From the NCBI GenBank assembly GCA_026416715.1, contig JAOAEQ010000019.1, forward strand, positions 11,163 through 75,162: 64,000 nt of DNA, given 5' to 3'. How positions within the stretch are numbered: position 1 is the stretch's first letter; every line of letters starts with the position of its first letter. Below the pieces are notes generated by a model. That model was not told the origin of the DNA. It saw only the letters and a program-made list of their open reading frames with translations, and did no database searches. A program made the translations under genes and the position numbers. The stretch comes from a bacterium. GTDB taxonomy: Bacteria; UBP4; UBA4092; JAOAEQ01. Below are positions 519 to 43,267 of this stretch, in pieces.

Positions 519-3500
519 TCAGGTACGGTTTCTCAAGGTATTGATTTCTTTCACGCAATGGATATCCTGGATTTGTTGCGCGTATTGTTCTGCGGTATTC
601 AGCCAGGTATTGGTTAAGGACATATTGTTTCTTTGCGAAGCGACTTTCGCCAGCGTTAACGCACACCACGCTAAATCGCGCGGGTTCCCCGCTCGTTTCG
701 CTAGGTCATACGCTTTCCTTGCCTGTAGGTCAGCTTGGTCAAGGTTATGGTTCAGGAGCGCAAGTTCCGCAAGCAGACGATAGGTTATCGTTGCGTTTTG
801 TTCCTGAATTTCGCGTATGAACGGAACAACTTTATCCGCAGTTTGTTCAGCTCGGTCAACTTGTTCATGGCGAATGTATAACTCTAATAGTCCATTGAGA
901 ACTACTACGGAAGTATAATGTTCTTTTGTCGTCTCCGCAACGGTCAATCCCTGCAAGAAATAATCTAACGCCCGCTGGTAATCGTTCAAGAACAAATATA
1001 CATAGCCAAAATTACACAGCACAATCGCTTGTGCGTTTGGGTCGCCCATTTTTTCCGCTTCCGATAACACATACCGATAGATAGTTATCGCTTCTTTCTC
1101 TTTCCCTTGCAGCCAATAGATCCACCCGATATTATTCTGGGCGGCGACTTCACCTTTTTTGAATCCGATTTCGCGCGCTAACCGAACACAATCGTTATAC
1201 GCTGCAACCGCTGCGTCGAGTTTCCCCAGTTTTTCATAGAGTATCCCGAGATTGTTATATCCGGCTACCTGCCCCCTTTTATCGCCGAGTTCTTCCCGCA
1301 ACGCTAGCCCCTGTTGGATATGCTGGATTGCCGCAGTATAATCTCCCATTGACCAGTAGGTTAACCCTAGATTATTATGCGCATGCGCTAACAACCTTAC
1401 ATCCTGCAAGTCTTGACTTAATTTTAACACTTCTTCAAAATAGCGAATTGCGGAATCGAACTGCCCTAAATCCCGCGAAATTACCGCTAGCCGGTTGATA
1501 CAATCGAGTTCCGCTTTCGTATCGCCCTGCTGCTGGCAGAGCGTAAACGCTCGTTGTTCGAAATCAATCGCTAGCTGGAACTCGCCGAGTTGTCGATGGA
1601 GTTCGCCGAGATTCTGATATGCCCGAATGAGTAAAACGGTGTTTCCGATACTCTGGGCGAGTTCCGCAGCGGTCATGTTATCGTGCATGGCGGATTTAAT
1701 ATCGCCAATCAGTTCGGATACCGTTCCCCGGTTCAGACGTAACGTGATTTCTAATTCTATCCGTTGTGATGCGGTGCCAGGAAAATATTCCGTTCGTTTT
1801 AACGCTTGCGTATAGAAATCGAGCGCCGCTTCATTTGCATACAGCAGTCGGCATTTATCTCCGGCTTTCACCAAATATTCGAGCGCTTTCTGGTTATTAT
1901 TACTATTCGAATAATGATGGGCAATCAGTTCATAATGTTCATCTAACCGGTCTGGATACATTATTTCGATACATTGCGCAATTTTCTCGTGATATATTTT
2001 CCGCCGTTTGACTAGCAAGGTATTATAGGTTACCTCTTGGGTTATCGAATGACGAAAGATATATTCGAGTTCTGGAATTACACTCTGCTGAAGAATCAAT
2101 CCGGTTCTCATGAGGTCGGTGAGGTGCTGTTCTAAATCTTGTTCAACTTCTAGAACATAGTCTAACACTTTATAGCGGAACCGGTGCCCGATAACCGAGG
2201 CACACTGCAGCACCCGACGTGGATGCGATGCTAATCGGTCGATTCGGGATAACACCACACCTTGGATCGTATCCGGAATATCGATCTCGTAGAGTGATTT
2301 CGTGAGACGCCAGCCGTCCGCAGATGGTTGTAAGGTTCCACTCTGGCATAAATAGAGAATGACTTCTTCAGCGAAAAACGGGTTCCCTTCCGTTTTCTTG
2401 AGGATGGTTTCCATTAACTCCTGCGGGAATTTCTGGAATCCTAATAAGTGGGAGATGAGTTTTTCGCTATCGTGCTCAGACAATTCTTTCAGTTCGAGCG
2501 TAATCTGTTTTCCGCGAGTAACCCACGGATGCGTGAAATAGGGACGATAGACCAGCACCATTGCCACCGGAACATTGCTGAGTTCAGGGATTAAATAGTT
2601 GATTAAATTGAGTGAAAGCGAATCCGCCCATTGTAAATCTTCAAATTCCAGCACGAGCGGTTTTTTTACTGCGGTATGTTTAATCACCGCAAATACCGCA
2701 TTGAAAATTCGTTTCATTCGCGATTTCGGCTCTTCTTCAAGCACGGATTGCGGCGCTCCTTCCGGTGTAACTAAGTATTGAATATACGGAATCTCATCGC
2801 GCAGGTCAGCAGAGAGATGCAGCAGAAATTCTTCCACTTTTCTTGCCGCATCGAATTTCGATATACTATCCGGAATACCACATAACCCGCGAATGAATAA
2901 ATCAATAAACGGTAGATACGGACTCCCTTTCCCATAGGATAGGCACCGACCGTAGTAGAATTGGAATCCGCGACTACGCGCTTCTTTGCCAAACTCATAC
3001 ATCAGCCGACTTTTTCCAACGCCGGATTCTCCTTTCAGATGCACGACGACACCGTGGGATTGTTTCGTCTCCTCGAGAACATTGAGTAGCAGACAAAGTT
3101 CCGTTTCGCGACCGATAAGTTCTACCGAACTCATTTTCCGCATCGGCATTTTATCATAATCTCGAATTGGCTTTTCAACCGCATAGGCGGTAATCGGAGC
3201 GGATTTCCCTTTCAACTCAATCGTACCGAGCGATTTGAATTCAAATGCATATTGCGTTCGTTCATAAATCCGCTGACTCACTACCGTCTGACCAGGTTCA
3301 GCGATCGACTGCAGCCGACTCGCAAGGTTGACTACATCGCCAATCGCAGTATAATCTAATCGCTGACCGCCACCCAGCCCGCCAACGATAACTTCACCGC
3401 AACTGATTCCAATATGCAGTTTAATTTCCCGATTAAACTTGTTCCCCAATCTGGTCATCGCTGCTTGAATCTCTAACGCTGACCGGAGCGCTCGTTCCGG

Positions 3501-12422: not shown

Positions 12423-12513
12423 AACTAACGGAAGAAATGAAAAACAAAGGTACTAACCGCTGCAAACGTCAACCATTACATTTTGTTCTTTTTAGTTCTT
12501 CCGTTCTTTAGTT
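12423..12513. repeat. Inverted repeat between the response regulator and kinase genes
   Basis: AACGGAAGAA (12427-12436) pairs with TTCTTCCGTT (12496-12505), and the outer AACT and AGTT extend the match. The right arm region is similar to the right arm at 30559-30624 (both read roughly CTTT-A-TT-TTC-GTTCTTT-GTT). It occupies the whole space between the two genes and will form an RNA hairpin inside the operon transcript. Confidence 0.6.
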
Positions 12514-15362: not shown

Positions 15363-16829
15363 TTATTCTTTAATCTGTTGAATAATATGGTTAACTACCC
15401 GGCGGAAATTCGCATCGGTTTGCAAATCCTGTTCGATTTTATTGCAAGCGTGGATAACCGTCGTATGGTCACGTTTTCCGAACGCTGCGCCTATTTCCGG
15501 AAAAGAACAATTGGTTAAATTCCGACATAAATACATCGCTACCTGCCGCGGCTGAACGATTCCTTTCGTTCGTTTCTGCCCTAAGAGTTCTTCGAGAGTA
15601 ATATTGTAATACGCAGCTACCCGCTTTTGAATTAACTCAATATTTATAGTCGCCACTTTCTTTTCGGTCAGCAGCCGACTTAACGCGGTTTTTGCCATCT
15701 CGAGCGTTATCGGCTGGCTGGTAAACGCAGCAGTCGCACCAAGTTTAACCAAACATCCTTCCAGCTCGCGGATATTTGACGTGATATTCTCAGCAATATA
15801 ATACGTCACCTCGTCGGGGATAGAAATCCGGTCTTGATATGCTTTCTTCTTAAGAATCGCAACCCGAGTTTCAAAATCCGGCGGCTGAATATCCGCAATT
15901 AGCCCCCATTCAAACCGAGAACGAAGCCGTTCTTCCAGCGTCGGAATTTCTTTCGGGGGTCGGTCGCTACTTACCACAATCTGTTTACTCGCTTCATGGA
16001 GCGCATTAAAGGTATGGAAAAAAACTTCTTGCGTCTGTTCTTTTCCGGCAATAAACTGGATATCGTCAATAATTAAAATATCTACGTTGCGATATCGTGC
16101 GTTAAACTCTTGAATTTGGGTGGATTGCATAGCGTAAATAAACGCATTTAAAAATTTCTCGCTGGTAATATATACCACTTTCGCTTGCGGATTGGTTTTT
16201 TGGATATAATGGCCGATAGCTTGCATCAGATGCGTTTTCCCTAATCCTACGCCGCCATACAAAAACAGTGGATTATATTGTTTTGCCGGATTCTGCGCAA
16301 CCGCTAACGCTGCCGCTTGCGCTAAACGATTGCTCGCACCTACCACAAACGTTTCAAACGTATATCGCGGATTCAGATAACTGCGTTCAAAAGTTTCGCC
16401 ACGATATTGGTCTTGTGAAATGACTCCTGATTTTACCTGGTGAATAGATCCATAGGTGTATGGGTAAAGAGTAGACCGTTCTTCGATGCGCCGCATGGTT
16501 GGTTCTCCGGATTCCGCATTCTCTAAATCTCTGGTTCGGTTCCGCAACCCCAGTTCACCAATCTGGAATTGGATGATAATTCGTTGCCCGGTGATTTCTT
16601 CAACCGCATTCATAATATCTTCGAGAAAATGGGAACTAATCCAATCCTGATAATATTTACTGGGAACGAATAGACTAAGTTTACCCTCCGCGAATTCATA
16701 CCCGCGAATCGCCTGAAACCAAACCTGTAAATTCTCACGACTAATCCGCTTCTCTAAAATGCGCAACGTCTCCTGCCATAAATCTAATGATGAAGTAGTA
16801 GAATTATTATTTATTATCTTTTCATACAT
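15363..16829 (-). CDS. dnaA: Chromosomal replication initiator DnaA
   Basis: This 488-residue protein has the complete DnaA layout: an N-terminal domain I (SLDLWQETLRILEKRISREN, with the LQVWFQ motif), a variable linker, an AAA+ domain from about 150 with Walker A GGVGLGKTH near 193 and Walker B LIIDDIQF near 250, the sensor region RLRSRFEWGL, and a C-terminal helix-turn-helix ending in the DnaA-box-contacting signature KRDHTTVIHACNKIEQ. GGAGGA precedes the ATG by 7 nt. The 600-bp region upstream carries clustered DnaA boxes, so the gene sits next to the probable origin. No dnaN follows; gspG does. Confidence 0.98.
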   Translation of the reverse strand: MYEKIINNNSTTSSLDLWQETLRILEKRISRENLQVWFQAIRGYEFAEGKLSLFVPSKYYQDWISSHFLEDIMNAVEEITGQRIIIQFQIGELGLRNRTRDLENAESGEPTMRRIEERSTLYPYTYGSIHQVKSGVISQDQYRGETFERSYLNPRYTFETFVVGASNRLAQAAALAVAQNPAKQYNPLFLYGGVGLGKTHLMQAIGHYIQKTNPQAKVVYITSEKFLNAFIYAMQSTQIQEFNARYRNVDILIIDDIQFIAGKEQTQEVFFHTFNALHEASKQIVVSSDRPPKEIPTLEERLRSRFEWGLIADIQPPDFETRVAILKKKAYQDRISIPDEVTYYIAENITSNIRELEGCLVKLGATAAFTSQPITLEMAKTALSRLLTEKKVATINIELIQKRVAAYYNITLEELLGQKRTKGIVQPRQVAMYLCRNLTNCSFPEIGAAFGKRDHTTVIHACNKIEQDLQTDANFRRVVNHIIQQIKE

Positions 16830-25243: not shown

Positions 25244-25468
25244 TAATCCCGTTAGGGATGTCTGATTCTAGCCCAGCTATTCATAGCTGGGTTCCCGCGC
25301 CGCTTTGATTTCGGTAGTCCCCTCAGGGACAACTGATTGGTCGCATTAACTAATCTTATCGGTTCAGCCGTCCCTTGCGGGACTACATCGTTCCTCTCTC
25401 AACCTAAGTCCCAGCATTTCATGCTGGGCTAATTCCAATCGCCCTTACCAGGGCTAACAAACTGCAAC
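25244..25468. repeat. Interspersed short-stem repeat (CCCAGC..GCTGGG), longest copy
   Basis: The order is TCCCGTTAGGGA, CCCAGCTATTCATAGCTGGG, GTCCCCTCAGGGAC, GTCCCTTGCGGGAC, CCCAGCATTTCATGCTGGG and GCCCTTACCAGGGC. The first 95 bp are repeated almost exactly at 25528-25623. It is the longest copy in the window. Confidence 0.8.
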
Positions 25469-25527: not shown

Positions 25528-25623
25528 TAATCCCGAAGGGATGTTTGATTCTAGCCCAGCTATTCATAGCTGGGTTCCCATGTCGCTTTGATTTCGGTAG
25601 TCCCCTCAGGGACGACTGATTGG
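25528..25623. repeat. Interspersed short-stem repeat, second tandem copy (truncated)
   Basis: This repeats 25244-25339 with only a few differences (TCCCGAAGGGA instead of TCCCGTTAGGGA, and GGGTTCCCATGTCGC instead of GGGTTCCCGCGCCGC) and then stops. Together with the half CGCAGAG copy it suggests a recent local duplication. Confidence 0.8.
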
Positions 25624-30558: not shown

Positions 30559-30624
30559 ACAAAAGAACGAAGAACCGGTGGAACCATACCGTTTTTTGCT
30601 CTTTAATTTTTTCGTTCTTTTGTT
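30559..30624. repeat. Inverted repeat between hydB and the CNB gene
   Basis: AACAAAAGAACGAA (30559-30572) and TTCGTTCTTTTGTT (30611-30624) are perfect 14-bp arms around 38 nt, which contain a smaller CGG/CCG stem. It begins just after the hydB stop and ends 11 nt before the next start. The right arm resembles the element at 12423-12513. A role in mRNA processing or partial termination is possible. Confidence 0.7.
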
Positions 30625-37450: not shown

Positions 37451-37621
37451 ATATCCCTCACGATGTATTGTGTAAAGTATTTATATTTGACAAATAAATT
37501 GGTTTAAGTCTCTTGGCACGTTAAATGTAAAATATGACAAGCAAATATACTTTACTAGTTTTGTTTTTATCTTTTCGATTGACTTTTGTTGTCGCGTAAA
37601 ACAATTTAATATTCCTATAAT

Positions 37622-37664
37622 GGAGTAGAATCGGAATTGAACGGTTCAATTCCGATTCTACTCC
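37622..37664. repeat. Perfect 43-bp palindrome, ATTGAACGGTTCAAT family, copy 2
   Basis: Arms 37622-37642 and 37644-37664 are perfect 21-bp complements around one G. The core ATTGAACGGTTCAAT and the AGAAT/ATTCT blocks are identical to copy 1 (6037-6081), while the bases between are different and still paired. It lies between the HIT and chrB-like genes, 20 nt after the HIT stop. No T-run follows. Confidence 0.85.
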
Positions 37665-37683
37665 AGAGTCAAGCTAAAACTAC

Positions 37684-38268: not shown

Positions 38269-39147
38269 TTATTCCGGTTTTACACCGAGTTTTAGCAGAA
38301 TTCGGTCTAGCTCATCGAGTGAATGGAATTCAATTTCGATTTTCCCTTTCTTTCCGCGAACAGACAACCGAACTTTAGTACCCAGCGCACGTTGAATCTG
38401 TTCTTCAAGGTGAGCTACTTCAGGTGCTGGAGTTGTTTTCCTTTCGAGACCCTTATGACCTGATTTAATCCGTTTAACTAAATTCTCTGTTTGTCGAACC
38501 GATAAAAATTTTTTTAGAATAATAGTACATACTTCTTCTTGCTGATGAACGGTTGGAAGAGATAACAACGCGCGGGCGTGTCCGAAAGAAATTGTTCCAC
38601 GTGAAACCTTTTCCTGGATAGATTCAGGTAACTCTAATAATCTCAATATATTTGAAACAGAACTACGATCTAATCCGGTCTTTTTCGCTATATCTTCATG
38701 CCGTAAATTGAATTGCGTAATTAGTTGCTGGAATCCTTTTGCTTTTTCAATTGGATTCAAATCGTCACGTTGGAGATTTTCAATCAACGCTAATTCTAAC
38801 GCCTCTTGGTCTGAAACCTGTTTAATAATTGCCGGAATCGTTGGGAGATTAAGCTTAACCGCAGCGCGATACCTTCGTTCTCCAGCAATGATTTCATAGC
38901 CAGAATCAACCTGACGAACCGTTATCGGTAAGATTATTCCCTTTTCTCGAATAGAAGCAGCTAATTCTTCAAGGGAAGTATCTGAAAAATTTTGTCGCGG
39001 TTGTAGCTTATTCGGCTTAAGACTAGCGAGTGGAATTTCCACTACTTGCTCTTGTTTCTGCTGGTCTCTCGCTAACGTTTCGAGCATTTGTTTTTTCTCT
39101 GTAGGAATTAATGCAGATAATCCCCTACCGAGCGCTTGTTTCTTCAC
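38269..39147 (-). CDS. parB: Chromosome-partitioning protein ParB (Spo0J)
   Basis: This 292-residue DNA-binding CTPase begins KKQALGRGLSALIPTEKKQM. The ParB N-terminal domain has IPLASLKPNKLQPRQNF and the box II motif GYEIIAGERRYRAAVKL. The helix-turn-helix (LRHEDIAKKTGLDRSSVSNI) and the C-terminal dimer domain follow. I start at the GTG at 39147, with AGAGGTG 7 nt before it. A TTG two codons earlier is too close to the site. The start overlaps the end of parA by 23 nt. A parS site lies inside the gene (38593-38608) and another upstream of parA. Confidence 0.95.
   Translation of the reverse strand: MKKQALGRGLSALIPTEKKQMLETLARDQQKQEQVVEIPLASLKPNKLQPRQNFSDTSLEELAASIREKGIILPITVRQVDSGYEIIAGERRYRAAVKLNLPTIPAIIKQVSDQEALELALIENLQRDDLNPIEKAKGFQQLITQFNLRHEDIAKKTGLDRSSVSNILRLLELPESIQEKVSRGTISFGHARALLSLPTVHQQEEVCTIILKKFLSVRQTENLVKRIKSGHKGLERKTTPAPEVAHLEEQIQRALGTKVRLSVRGKKGKIEIEFHSLDELDRILLKLGVKPE
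38593..38608. promoter_or_regulatory. parS site inside parB
   Basis: TGTTCCACGTGAAACC matches the bacterial parS consensus TGTTNCACGTGAAACA in 15 of 16 positions. Confidence 0.85.
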
Positions 39148-39901
39148 GTTCAATCACCTCTTGAGTTAGTTTAATATAAGCTTCGGCTCCGGAAGAGCGG
39201 AAATCATAAAAAATAATCGGTTTGCCAAACCCTGGCGCTTCGCTTAATCTGATCGACCGTGGGATAACCGTTTTGAATACTCGGTCGCCAAAATGTTGCC
39301 TGACTTCATCAGCTACCTGCGAAGATAAATTAGTTCTACTATCATACATAGTTAAAATGATTCCCAGAATCGCTAGTTCCGGATTGAGTGATGATTTAAC
39401 TAATTCTATGGTTTCGAGCAGTTTCGCAAACCCTTCCAGCGCATAATACTCACATTGGAGCGGGATTAATATCTTATTCCCTGCAACGAGAGCGTTAACT
39501 GTTAATAAACCTAGCGAAGGTGGAGTGTCAATTAGAATATAATCATAACTATTTTTTATCGAATTAATGGCTTGCTGAAGGAGAAATTCACGATTCTCAA
39601 TCTCAACTAGTTCAACTTGTGCTCCGTTTAGCTGGTCGTTTGCGGGCAACAAATCAAGCAGCGGAACAAAAGTATGTACTAAAATTTGGTCAATAGGGGT
39701 TGAATTAATGATACCGTCATAGATGCTTTTTGCAATTAATCTTTTATCTAGTCCGAGTCCGCTCGTTGCGTTTGCTTGCGGGTCAAGGTCGATCAGCAGC
39801 GTTTTTTTACCTGCTGCAGCTAAACAAGCGGCAAGGTTGACCGCAGTTGTGGTTTTTCCGACACCACCTTTTTGATTCGCAATAGTAATAATTCTATTCA
39901 T
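39125..39901 (-). CDS. parA: Chromosome-partitioning ATPase ParA (Soj)
   Basis: This 258-residue Walker-type ATPase begins MNRIITIANQKGGVGKTTTA, with the deviant Walker A box (Lys11 and Lys16). Walker A' is LLIDLDPQANATSGL and Walker B YILIDTPPSLGLLTVNALVA. It has no N-terminal helix-turn-helix, so it is the chromosomal Soj type. With ParB it segregates the origin region. It overlaps parB, and the operon has a promoter candidate at 39949-39977 next to a parS site, which suggests autoregulation. Confidence 0.96.
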   Translation of the reverse strand: MNRIITIANQKGGVGKTTTAVNLAACLAAAGKKTLLIDLDPQANATSGLGLDKRLIAKSIYDGIINSTPIDQILVHTFVPLLDLLPANDQLNGAQVELVEIENREFLLQQAINSIKNSYDYILIDTPPSLGLLTVNALVAGNKILIPLQCEYYALEGFAKLLETIELVKSSLNPELAILGIILTMYDSRTNLSSQVADEVRQHFGDRVFKTVIPRSIRLSEAPGFGKPIIFYDFRSSGAEAYIKLTQEVIEREETSAR

Positions 39902-39933: not shown

Positions 39934-39949
39934 TGTTTCACGTGGAACA
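39934..39949. promoter_or_regulatory. parS site upstream of parA
   Basis: TGTTTCACGTGGAACA is a perfect parS sequence (consensus on the reverse strand). A second partial TTTCACGTG lies immediately to its left (39923-39931). Confidence 0.93.
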
Positions 39950-39977: not shown

Positions 39978-40083
39978 GATACCATAGGATAGATTATCTT
40001 GTCTAGAGGAAATTTAGATTTTTTAGGTGAGCTGATTATTTTGCTAAGAATTGAAATTAAAAGTTGATTTTTAGGGAAAATAA

Positions 40084-40188
40084 AAAAGCTCGGAAACTGA
40101 CCAAGGGATTTGAGGGGAACGCGTTTAAATTTTTCATTTCGTGCCCGGCAAGGGAACGATATTGCGTTTATAGTCAGTCCGAGCTTTT
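40084..40188 (-). ncRNA. Candidate structured RNA or long terminator stem before parA
   Basis: AAAAGCTCGG (40084-40093) pairs with CCGAGCTTTT (40179-40188). After a two-base bulge, ACTGAC pairs with GTCAGT (40173-40178), giving a 16-bp stem. Inside, AACGC (40118-40122) pairs with GCGTT (40164-40168), and the loop has two GGGAACG copies and TGCCCGGCA. On the minus strand the structure ends in six T, as for a transcript ending here, 49 nt after the 62-residue protein gene. It matches no RNA family I know; it is clearly not tRNA, SRP, tmRNA or RNase P. It could be a small RNA or a large terminator. Confidence 0.5.
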
Positions 40189-40236: not shown

Positions 40237-40425
40237 TTAATTGAGCATTTTTACATGGAGAACACTAGTGCCATTCTTATAGCAATGACCCTTTTTAACT
40301 CCGGCGAATCCTTTCGCTTTCTGCATAGCTTCAAGGATATTATTCGCCCGAATTAATAATTTCCGTTCGACATATCGACCGGAGCCAACATGTCCCCCTT
40401 TAACTAAACAATGGTAAATATTCAA
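40237..40425 (-). CDS. 62-residue protein of unknown function with TTG start
   Basis: This small basic protein begins MNIYHCLVKGGHVGSGRYVE and then has AMQKAKGFAGVKKGHCYKNG. It has no signal peptide or membrane helix. The start is TTG at 40425, fixed by GAAGGGGGTGA 6 nt upstream, one of the best ribosome sites here. The composition (many Lys, Gly, His and a regular beta-alpha-beta feel) and strong site argue that it is a real, well-expressed gene. I do not recognise a family. An extended -10 (TGGTATAAA, 40464-40472) lies 39 nt upstream, and the candidate RNA lies directly downstream. Confidence 0.75.
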   Translation of the reverse strand: MNIYHCLVKGGHVGSGRYVERKLLIRANNILEAMQKAKGFAGVKKGHCYKNGTSVLHVKMLN

Positions 40426-40463
40426 ATATATTCACCCCCTTCGATAAATCTATTTAAGCAAAT

Positions 40464-40472
40464 TTTATACCA
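40464..40472 (-). promoter_or_regulatory. Extended -10 element for the 62-residue protein gene
   Basis: TGGTATAAA on the minus strand, 39 nt before the TTG start. No clear -35 is seen. Confidence 0.4.
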
Positions 40473-40569
40473 AATAATAATATTGGCACCGATTGTATTG
40501 CAACAATAATAAAATCAAATATTTATAAAATATCGGTTTGTCGGTTATGTTTTTGTAACCCAACACAAC

Positions 40570-40607
40570 CGTTCAGAAAATTAACGATACCGTTCATTTT
40601 CTGAACG
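40570..40607. repeat. Hairpin in the 40426-40839 gap
   Basis: CGTTCAGAAAAT (40570-40581) and ATTTTCTGAACG (40596-40607) are perfect 12-bp arms. The 14-nt loop itself holds AACG/CGTT. It looks like the nested palindromes at 6037 and 37622 in shape, but not in sequence. No T-run follows. Confidence 0.7.
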
Positions 40608-40839: not shown

Positions 40840-42831
40840 TTATCCTGTAGGTGTTGGTTTAACCAAATTATATTTTCTTATTTTTTCATACAACGTAACC
40901 TTGCTAACCCGCAATTGTTCAGCGGTTCTGGTGATATTCCAATTATTGATATTCAGCGCATGCAAAATATATTTTTTTTCTATTTCTTCTAAGGGAAGGA
41001 TTTTCGAAGTGGTAGTATCTGTTGGTGCCATAATCTCTGAAATTGATGCTCCGGCATCAAGCGCATAAAGGTCAGCTGGCCGGATAACGTTAGAGGTTGC
41101 CATGACTACAATCCGTTCAATCATATTTTCTAATTCACGAACGTTTCCAGGCCAATCCCGATGCTGGAGAATATGCATCGTTTCAGGAGCTATAGTTATC
41201 GCTCCTGCTTTATCATATTTACGCAAAAAATGCGCCACTAAATAAGGGATATCTTCTCGTCGTTCGCGCAACGAAGGCATATGGATTGGAATAATATTCA
41301 GACGATAAAATAAATCTTCGCGGAATCGCTTTTCCGCGATCGCTTGATATAAATCCTGATTCGTTGCCGCGATGATTCGAACATCTACTTTAATAGTCTC
41401 ATTTCCACCGACTCGTTCAAACGCTTTATCTTGCAGAACCCGGAGTAACTTCAGTTGTAAAACAGGACTTATATCTCCTATTTCTTCAAGGAATATCGTT
41501 CCGTGGTTAGCGGATTCAAACCTACCGATGCGGCGGTTAGTGGCTCCGGTAAACGACCCTTTTTCGTGTCCAAATAGTTCTGATTCCAGTAATGATTCCG
41601 GCAACGCAGCGCAATTTACCACCACAAACGGTTGATTTTTCCGCGGACTATTCTGATGGATAATCTGGGCAATGAGCGTTTTCCCGGTACCGTTTTCTCC
41701 CGTAATTAAAACCGTCGAATCGATTGCCGCTGCCAGTCTCGCTTTTCGAACCACCTCGCGCATTTTGGGACTCGTCCCGATAATTCGTAATCCGCCTGCT
41801 CCTGTAGCGGTATCTACTAACGACCCGGTTGGACTTCCGCCCGGTTTAACCATATCGAACGTAAACGAAGCGCCTTCCATAAAACTGATAAACTCGCGGA
41901 AATCTTTCGAATCAAGCATAGTACGGTCGGTTGCTGATTTCCCGAGCCCGTGTTTCGCATAAATCAACCCGAGGTTATATATTGCATTTGCGTTTCCTGG
42001 CTCTCGGCGGATGATTTCATTAAACTGCTCGATCGCTTTCTGAATTTGCCCGGATCTATAATATGCAATACCGAGATTATTTCGTGTGGCTAAAGTATCT
42101 AAAACGCTGGGGGTTAATTCGATGACACGAAGATACGCGCCGATTGCTTTTTCAAACTCATTTTGTCCGAGATAACAATCGCCAAGTACCTGATACGCGG
42201 AAACTAGATATGGATTCAATCGAATTGCTTCCTGTAAGTCAGTTATCGCTGACTTAGGGTTAGCGCTTTTTGACCGCGCTACCCCAAGATAGAAATATAT
42301 ATCCGCAATAAACAACGATTTCTGCGGATAGAATAATCCGAGATAATATTTATTCGGTTGATATTCATTATGGAGCGAGAGCGCGGTGGTGAAACAGTCG
42401 ATTGCTTCCGCTATTTCATTGCGATAAAGCTTGATTAACCCTAGATTGAAATAAAGGTCTAATCCTTTATATTTCAATTTCAATGCACGCTGATATGCTT
42501 GATATGCCTGCGAATGTTTACCCGCATGAAGATAACAATGCCCGAGGTCACATAACAGTTGCGGTTGATTTAATCCCGGATTTTCTTTCAGGAGTTTCTC
42601 ATATCCTAGTAAAGCAGATTCATAATCGCCGAGCATAAATTTATATTGTACTTCCTGGTATTCAGGGGTAGATAAAAGCGAAATTCGCGACCGTTTAACC
42701 TTCTTTCCCGGCGAGCTATCGGTTGATTGGATCTCAGGCGATTTGAGTTCAGGGCGAGCAATCGCGGTTCCGCAATTCGGACAGTATCGGCTGGTTTTAG
42801 AAACACTCCTCCCGCAGTTTTGACATAGCAA
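40840..42831 (-). CDS. Sigma54-dependent activator with zinc ribbon and TPR sensor region
   Basis: This 663-residue protein starts at TTG 42831, fixed by AAAGGAGGTGA 7 nt upstream. A zinc ribbon ([19 protein letters not shown]) is followed by about seven TPRs (to about 320), then a short linker and an AAA+ domain with Walker [10 protein letters not shown], the sigma54-contact loop GSFTGA (GAFTGA in most), [20 protein letters not shown] and a sensor arginine region. The C-terminal HTH is Fis-like ([20 protein letters not shown]). There is no receiver, GAF or PAS domain; the TPRs probably sense a protein partner. It follows the pilus/secretion genes and may control them. Confidence 0.9.
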
Positions 42832-42898
42832 TGGATTTTCACCTCCTTTACAAAATATCGTATCTTCAAAACCTGCAATTCGAAACCATACTTTACGG

Positions 42899-43267
42899 TT
42901 ACATTTTCCCGTTGCTAGGTTTTTCCGTTTGGTTCGAGTCTCGAGATTCAAGCTTCACGTTTGCTTCTCGATTGAGCCATTTAATTCGTTCTTCCGCAAT
43001 ATACGCAAACTTCGGATATTTTTCAATTAACGTGCGATAGATTTCTTCCGCCTGTCGGAACTGGTTTTGATGCTCTAGTTCGTATCCTTTCCGAAATTCC
43101 TTTTCGAATCGGATTAGTTCTTCTCGGTCTTGTTCGCTAAGCGATTTTAAAAGATACCCCAAACCACCGAGCGCGGATGCGGCTAAAAAACTAATAAAAT
43201 ATGGCGGAAAGGCTAATGATAATAATAAAAACCCAACCGCAGCTAACCCATATTCTTCCTTACGCAT
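42899..43267 (-). CDS. Small membrane protein with a TPR
   Basis: This 122-residue protein has one or two hydrophobic helices near the N-terminus ([20 protein letters not shown], then [15 protein letters not shown]). A charged helical tail follows with one TPR ([20 protein letters not shown]). It lies between the secretin and activator genes on the same strand. A promoter candidate sits 53 nt before its ATG, so it may start a two-gene unit with the sigma54 activator, and might present a signal to its TPRs (inference). I do not recognise a family. Confidence 0.7.

Follow-up and report, generated by a model that had tools for sequence, protein, structure and literature searches.

The canonical limits for intrinsic (Rho-independent) terminators, as set for TransTermHP, are a loop of 3–13 nt and a total length of at most 59 nt (PMC1852404), and in a Term-seq survey the median terminator loop was 4 nt (PMC12207403). 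A terminator stem also forms the end of GlnZ, a small RNA (sRNA) from the 3'UTR of glnA (PMC9731577). Here, we analyzed a hairpin in a 64,000-nucleotide stretch of DNA (the window) from a bacterium of the phylum UBP4, for which the initial annotation had proposed an unnamed structured RNA. Our analysis weakens that reading, and we consider it likely that the hairpin is an intrinsic terminator with an oversized loop that ends the single-gene sigma-54-type mRNA of the 62-residue gene ahead of it. The hairpin resembles intrinsic terminators in its GC-rich stem foot, the A-tract before and the U-tract after it, and its site just behind a same-strand gene; it differs from them in an interior of ~67 nt and a total length of 105 nt. 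The locus is also similar to units composed of a sigma-54 promoter and an NtrC-type activator in that an activator gene, a palindrome ~100 bp upstream, a -24/-12-like site, and a target gene are present in both genomes compared, and it differs from such units in that the target is an uncharacterised small protein and the promoter-like site matches only 10/13 consensus positions. The features are, along the minus strand:

40840–42951, minus: gene for a TPR-containing sigma-54-dependent activator with AAA+ and Fis-type HTH domains, adjoining the small gene
40570–40607, no strand assigned: paired palindromic 17-mers CGTTCAGAAAATKAACG, a candidate activator-binding site ~100 bp upstream of the promoter-like site
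40457–40473, minus: sigma-54-type -24/-12-like promoter TTGGTATAAAATTTGCT, with 10/13 consensus positions (reached in 1.6% of upstream-region shuffles)
40237–40425, minus: gene for a 62-aa small protein, with a TTG start and an SD-like GGGGGTG ahead of it
40084–40188, minus: terminator-like hairpin, with 5' arm 40188–40171, interior 40170–40104, and 3' arm 40103–40084 containing a 2-nt bulge
40077–40087, minus: U-tract TTTTTTATTTT (U6-A-U4) at the 3' foot of the stem
39934–39949, no strand assigned: exact parS site, outside the hairpin unit
39125–39901, minus: parA, the next gene downstream, whose own promoter-like sites lie in the stretch from the hairpin to the gene start

Stem, interior, and U-tract of the hairpin

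The stem, which is directly observed, is formed by AAAAGCTCGGACTGAC and GTCAG-TT-TCCGAGCTTTT and contains 16 pairs plus two weaker inner pairs and one 2-nt bulge, enclosing an interior of 67–71 nt, in agreement with the 16-bp stem and 71-nt interior originally described. The minimum free energy of the minus strand is -36.3 kcal/mol as compared to -22.7 ± 3.5 kcal/mol for shuffled sequences (z -3.9). The longest unbroken stem of 11 bp was matched by 0.8% of shuffles of the region, a figure in which the further seven pairs and the T-run are not counted. Because the plus strand folds as well (z -2.5), the strand is not decided by folding alone. At 40087–40077, directly after the stem on the minus strand, lies the U-tract, in line with both the strand and the T-run end that had been reported.

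The interior had been described as having its own paired segment and two GGGAACG repeats. While both repeats are present (at 40115 and 40152), a 7-nt direct repeat of this type occurred in 29% of shuffled interiors, and the pairing did not exceed chance, with z -0.98 on the minus and -0.87 on the plus strand and 16% and 19% of shuffles, respectively, folding equally well. We conclude that the real signal is the stem, with interior pairing and repeats at chance level. In equilibrium folding of the growing transcript, the long stem became the minimum-energy fold once the 3' end reached 40086, i.e. during synthesis of the U-tract. A local 5-bp hairpin (CTTGG-UCAGUUU-CCGAG, 17 nt, -4.4 kcal/mol) precedes the U-tract and is of a size within the TransTermHP limits; this hairpin might aid termination, though it is weak.

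To place the hairpin within its own genome (2.96 Mb, with the window on contig C19), we surveyed 435 kb, composed of the window and 19 further stretches, for stems followed by a T-run. Most strong cases in these 435 kb have loops of 3–17 nt and lie 10–200 nt behind a same-strand gene. Stems with a loop of >25 nt and a score of at least 12 numbered 10 in the surveyed sequence, several of them within genes, as compared to ~1 in shuffled sequence, and among intergenic stems with a loop of >25 nt in the survey the hairpin scored highest. Thus, the hairpin looks like the ordinary terminators of its own genome in position and U-tract, and its loop length makes it an outlier.

Homology searches were consistent with the initial statement that no known RNA family matches. 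Rfam gave no match at the hairpin at gathering or relaxed thresholds, and the two matches at relaxed thresholds have E >3. DNA searches of its own genome and of 40 other genomes returned only short chance matches, with neither a second copy nor a homologue of the hairpin, and the exact stem pattern was absent from viral contigs. An integron attC site was also considered and set aside by eye: attC arms carry a GTTRRRY/RYYYAAC core, and because the arms here are without this core, the attC reading was dropped.

Elsewhere in the window, two matches to Acido-Lenti-1 RNA (RF01687) were found on the minus strand at 25245–25291 and 25529–25574, the latter only slightly above threshold; they lie in a repeated stretch of the type CCGCAGAG...CTCTGCGG. 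Long-looped inverted repeats at 30559–30623, between two opposite-strand genes, and at 12427–12505 are rich in AACGAAGAAC-type sequence, and a perfect 22-bp palindrome with a 1-nt centre (37621–37665) lies just beyond the end of a HIT-like gene.

The small gene, its control region, and its counterpart in UBA6127

A gap of 48–49 nt separates the hairpin from the small gene ahead of it on the same strand, matching the 49 nt given initially. The minus-strand gene order, as directly observed, is secretion/pilus-like operon, activator, 62-aa gene, hairpin, parS, and parAB. The operon, which runs from 51455 to 43372 on the minus strand ahead of the activator gene, is type II secretion/type IV pilus-like and encodes a secretin, T2SSM, PilM/PilN, T2SSK, and pseudopilin-like proteins. 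The paired 17-mer palindrome has a full match at the 40570–40607 locus only, and RpoN is encoded in this genome. With the paired palindrome, the -24/-12-like site, and RpoN, the small gene resembles a sigma-54 unit composed of one gene. This sigma-54-type context, which was absent from the initial annotation, changes the reading of the hairpin.

No family in Pfam, NCBIfam, or PHROGs matched the small protein at cut-off, and a profile search of solved structures yielded a single weak match, a designed protein (E 0.007). An AlphaFold2 model based on two sequences is of moderate confidence (pLDDT 76.5) and has a beta-beta-alpha-beta arrangement. We note an unnamed small-protein family with the motif GHxG...GVKKG...SVL at 40237–40425 of the window, L047:1501–1674, and L048:1501–1671. 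Relatives of the small protein are an ortholog in UBP4 bacterium UBA6127 (50% identity) and one paralog in its own genome, which has a pilin-type gene immediately behind it and no such hairpin; a scan of genome contigs detected the protein in UBA6127 only, and none was found in viral contigs.

The comparison within the phylum is limited to two UBP4 genomes, the one analyzed here and UBA6127. As directly observed, UBA6127 keeps the order of activator, paired palindrome, -24/-12-like promoter, small gene, and stem with T-run. Specifically, its activator ortholog is 48% identical, its paired palindrome is of the 18-nt type (L047:1844–1883), RpoN is encoded, and a GG-N10-GC element with the -24/-12 consensus is found as in the window (10/13 positions), with the UBA6127 site TTGGCATATATCTTGCA matching 11/13 positions (0.15% of shuffles). 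A perfect 13-bp stem with a 25-nt loop, followed by TTTCTTTT, lies 31 nt after the stop of the small gene; the sequence of this stem is unrelated to that of the stem in the window. In UBA6127, the small gene is not adjacent to parA, and the parA region contains two parS-like sites and no comparable stem. Because UBA6127 has a stem at its small gene and none at its parA, we suggest that the stem goes with the small gene and can vary freely in sequence and interior. Based on the two sequences, what is kept is the position of a putative terminator behind the small gene, as for terminators whose sequence changes, and not an RNA fold. Also in UBA6127, a short frame similar to the N-terminus of a pilin (VTLIELLIVVAFIS; L047 at about 1460–1500, plus strand; read by eye) abuts the end of the small gene on the opposite strand and is possibly the remnant of a pilin gene.

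With an interior at shuffle level, no homologue in its own genome and the 40 others searched, and only a simple stem of different sequence behind the UBA6127 ortholog, the proposal of a distinct structured RNA is not supported; relatives with a simple terminator stem only were the outcome that the initial annotation itself had set against its proposal, and this is what we find in the one relative, UBA6127.

Weighing the readings

Several lines of evidence argue for an intrinsic terminator of the small gene. The stem exceeds chance, has a GC-rich foot, and is followed by a U-tract; it lies 49 nt after a same-strand gene, within the distances of terminators in its own genome; it takes over the growing transcript at 40086; the small gene with the same layout in UBA6127 also has a stem and T-run behind it; and the interior has no excess of structure. 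In our working model, an NtrC-type activator from the adjoining gene probably binds the paired palindrome at 40570–40607 and would activate sigma-54 RNA polymerase at the -24/-12 site (40473–40457), giving a transcript of ~370 nt in which a strong ribosome-binding site would precede the small gene. On leaving the polymerase, the 3' arm would pair with its 5' partner, and release of the RNA by the U6-A-U4 tract, ahead of parS/parA, would insulate the latter; the interior of ~67 nt probably forms a neutral loop. Stable stem, U-rich tract directly after it, and same-strand gene ahead are as in intrinsic terminators. Because the loop was tested against the limit of 3–13 nt (total ≤59 nt) and, at 67 nt in a hairpin of 105 nt, exceeds it, we file the hairpin as a terminator-like variant rather than a plain member. 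Counting against the terminator reading are this loop and length beyond canonical limits, the plus strand that also folds well, and a UBA6127 stem that comes from one genome.

We also considered that the terminator hairpin and interior are cut from the small-gene mRNA as a 3'UTR-derived sRNA acting on other mRNAs, which is compatible with a terminator role. The long interior on a terminator-bearing 3'UTR, Hfq encoded in both genomes, and the precedent of GlnZ (PMC9731577) speak for such an sRNA; however, the interior is not conserved in UBA6127 and is no more structured than shuffles, no homologue was found in its own genome and 40 others, and beyond the long interior the sequence offers nothing in favor, making this reading unlikely. 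Similarly to GlnZ, the hairpin lies in a 3'UTR, ends in a terminator stem, and occurs in a genome with Hfq, whereas here there is no conserved seed or interior, and target and processing are hypothetical. Slightly less probable still is a more specific version, in which a small-protein mRNA under sigma-54 control, encoded beside a secretion/pilus-like operon in UBP4, gives rise to an sRNA that depends on Hfq and consists of the 3' hairpin and its long interior. We regard it as very improbable that the hairpin belongs to an independent sRNA transcribed from a separate promoter behind the small gene and ahead of the stem: stem and U-tract are the usual 3' end of such RNAs, but no minus-strand promoter-like site was detected at the threshold used from the small-gene end to the stem, only 48–49 nt are free there without gene overlap, and no conservation was found in its own genome and the 40 others searched.

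The initial annotation had also stated that the hairpin precedes parS/parA near the origin. Both lie where described, and because dnaA is on the same contig (near window position 15435), "near the origin" is reasonable. A riboswitch-like leader or attenuator of the parAB operon, imposing a conditional stop before parA, would be in keeping with the U-tract at the end of the hairpin and with the hairpin position, 183 nt upstream of parA and on the parA strand. However, there is no antiterminator, as neither arm pairs with upstream sequence better than shuffles; the stretch from the hairpin to parA contains promoter-like sites, one of which has an extended -10, in a number only modestly above that in shuffled sequence; Rfam gave no match; and the stem in UBA6127 is at the small gene, not at parA. 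We therefore give this reading very little weight. Because the parA region of UBA6127 has parS without such a stem, nothing ties the stem to parA, and the association of the hairpin with parS/parA is, on sequence evidence, positional only. An RNA from the plus strand or a DNA-level palindrome, in favor of which the plus strand folds at least as well, has the least to commend it, as the neighbouring genes are all on the minus strand, no plus-strand promoter-like site was found from parA to the stem, the plus-strand stem is followed only by TTTT and then CGC, and the genome has no second copy.

If an Hfq-dependent sRNA were released, a single transcript would serve as message for a small protein and as source of a regulatory RNA, in a phylum (UBP4) about which little is known. 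As a terminator, the hairpin itself matters little, although standard predictors limited to short loops would miss such a case. The more useful result is the surrounding unit, in which an unnamed family of small proteins, with a control region of the sigma-54 type that is conserved, lies beside secretion/pilus genes in UBP4.
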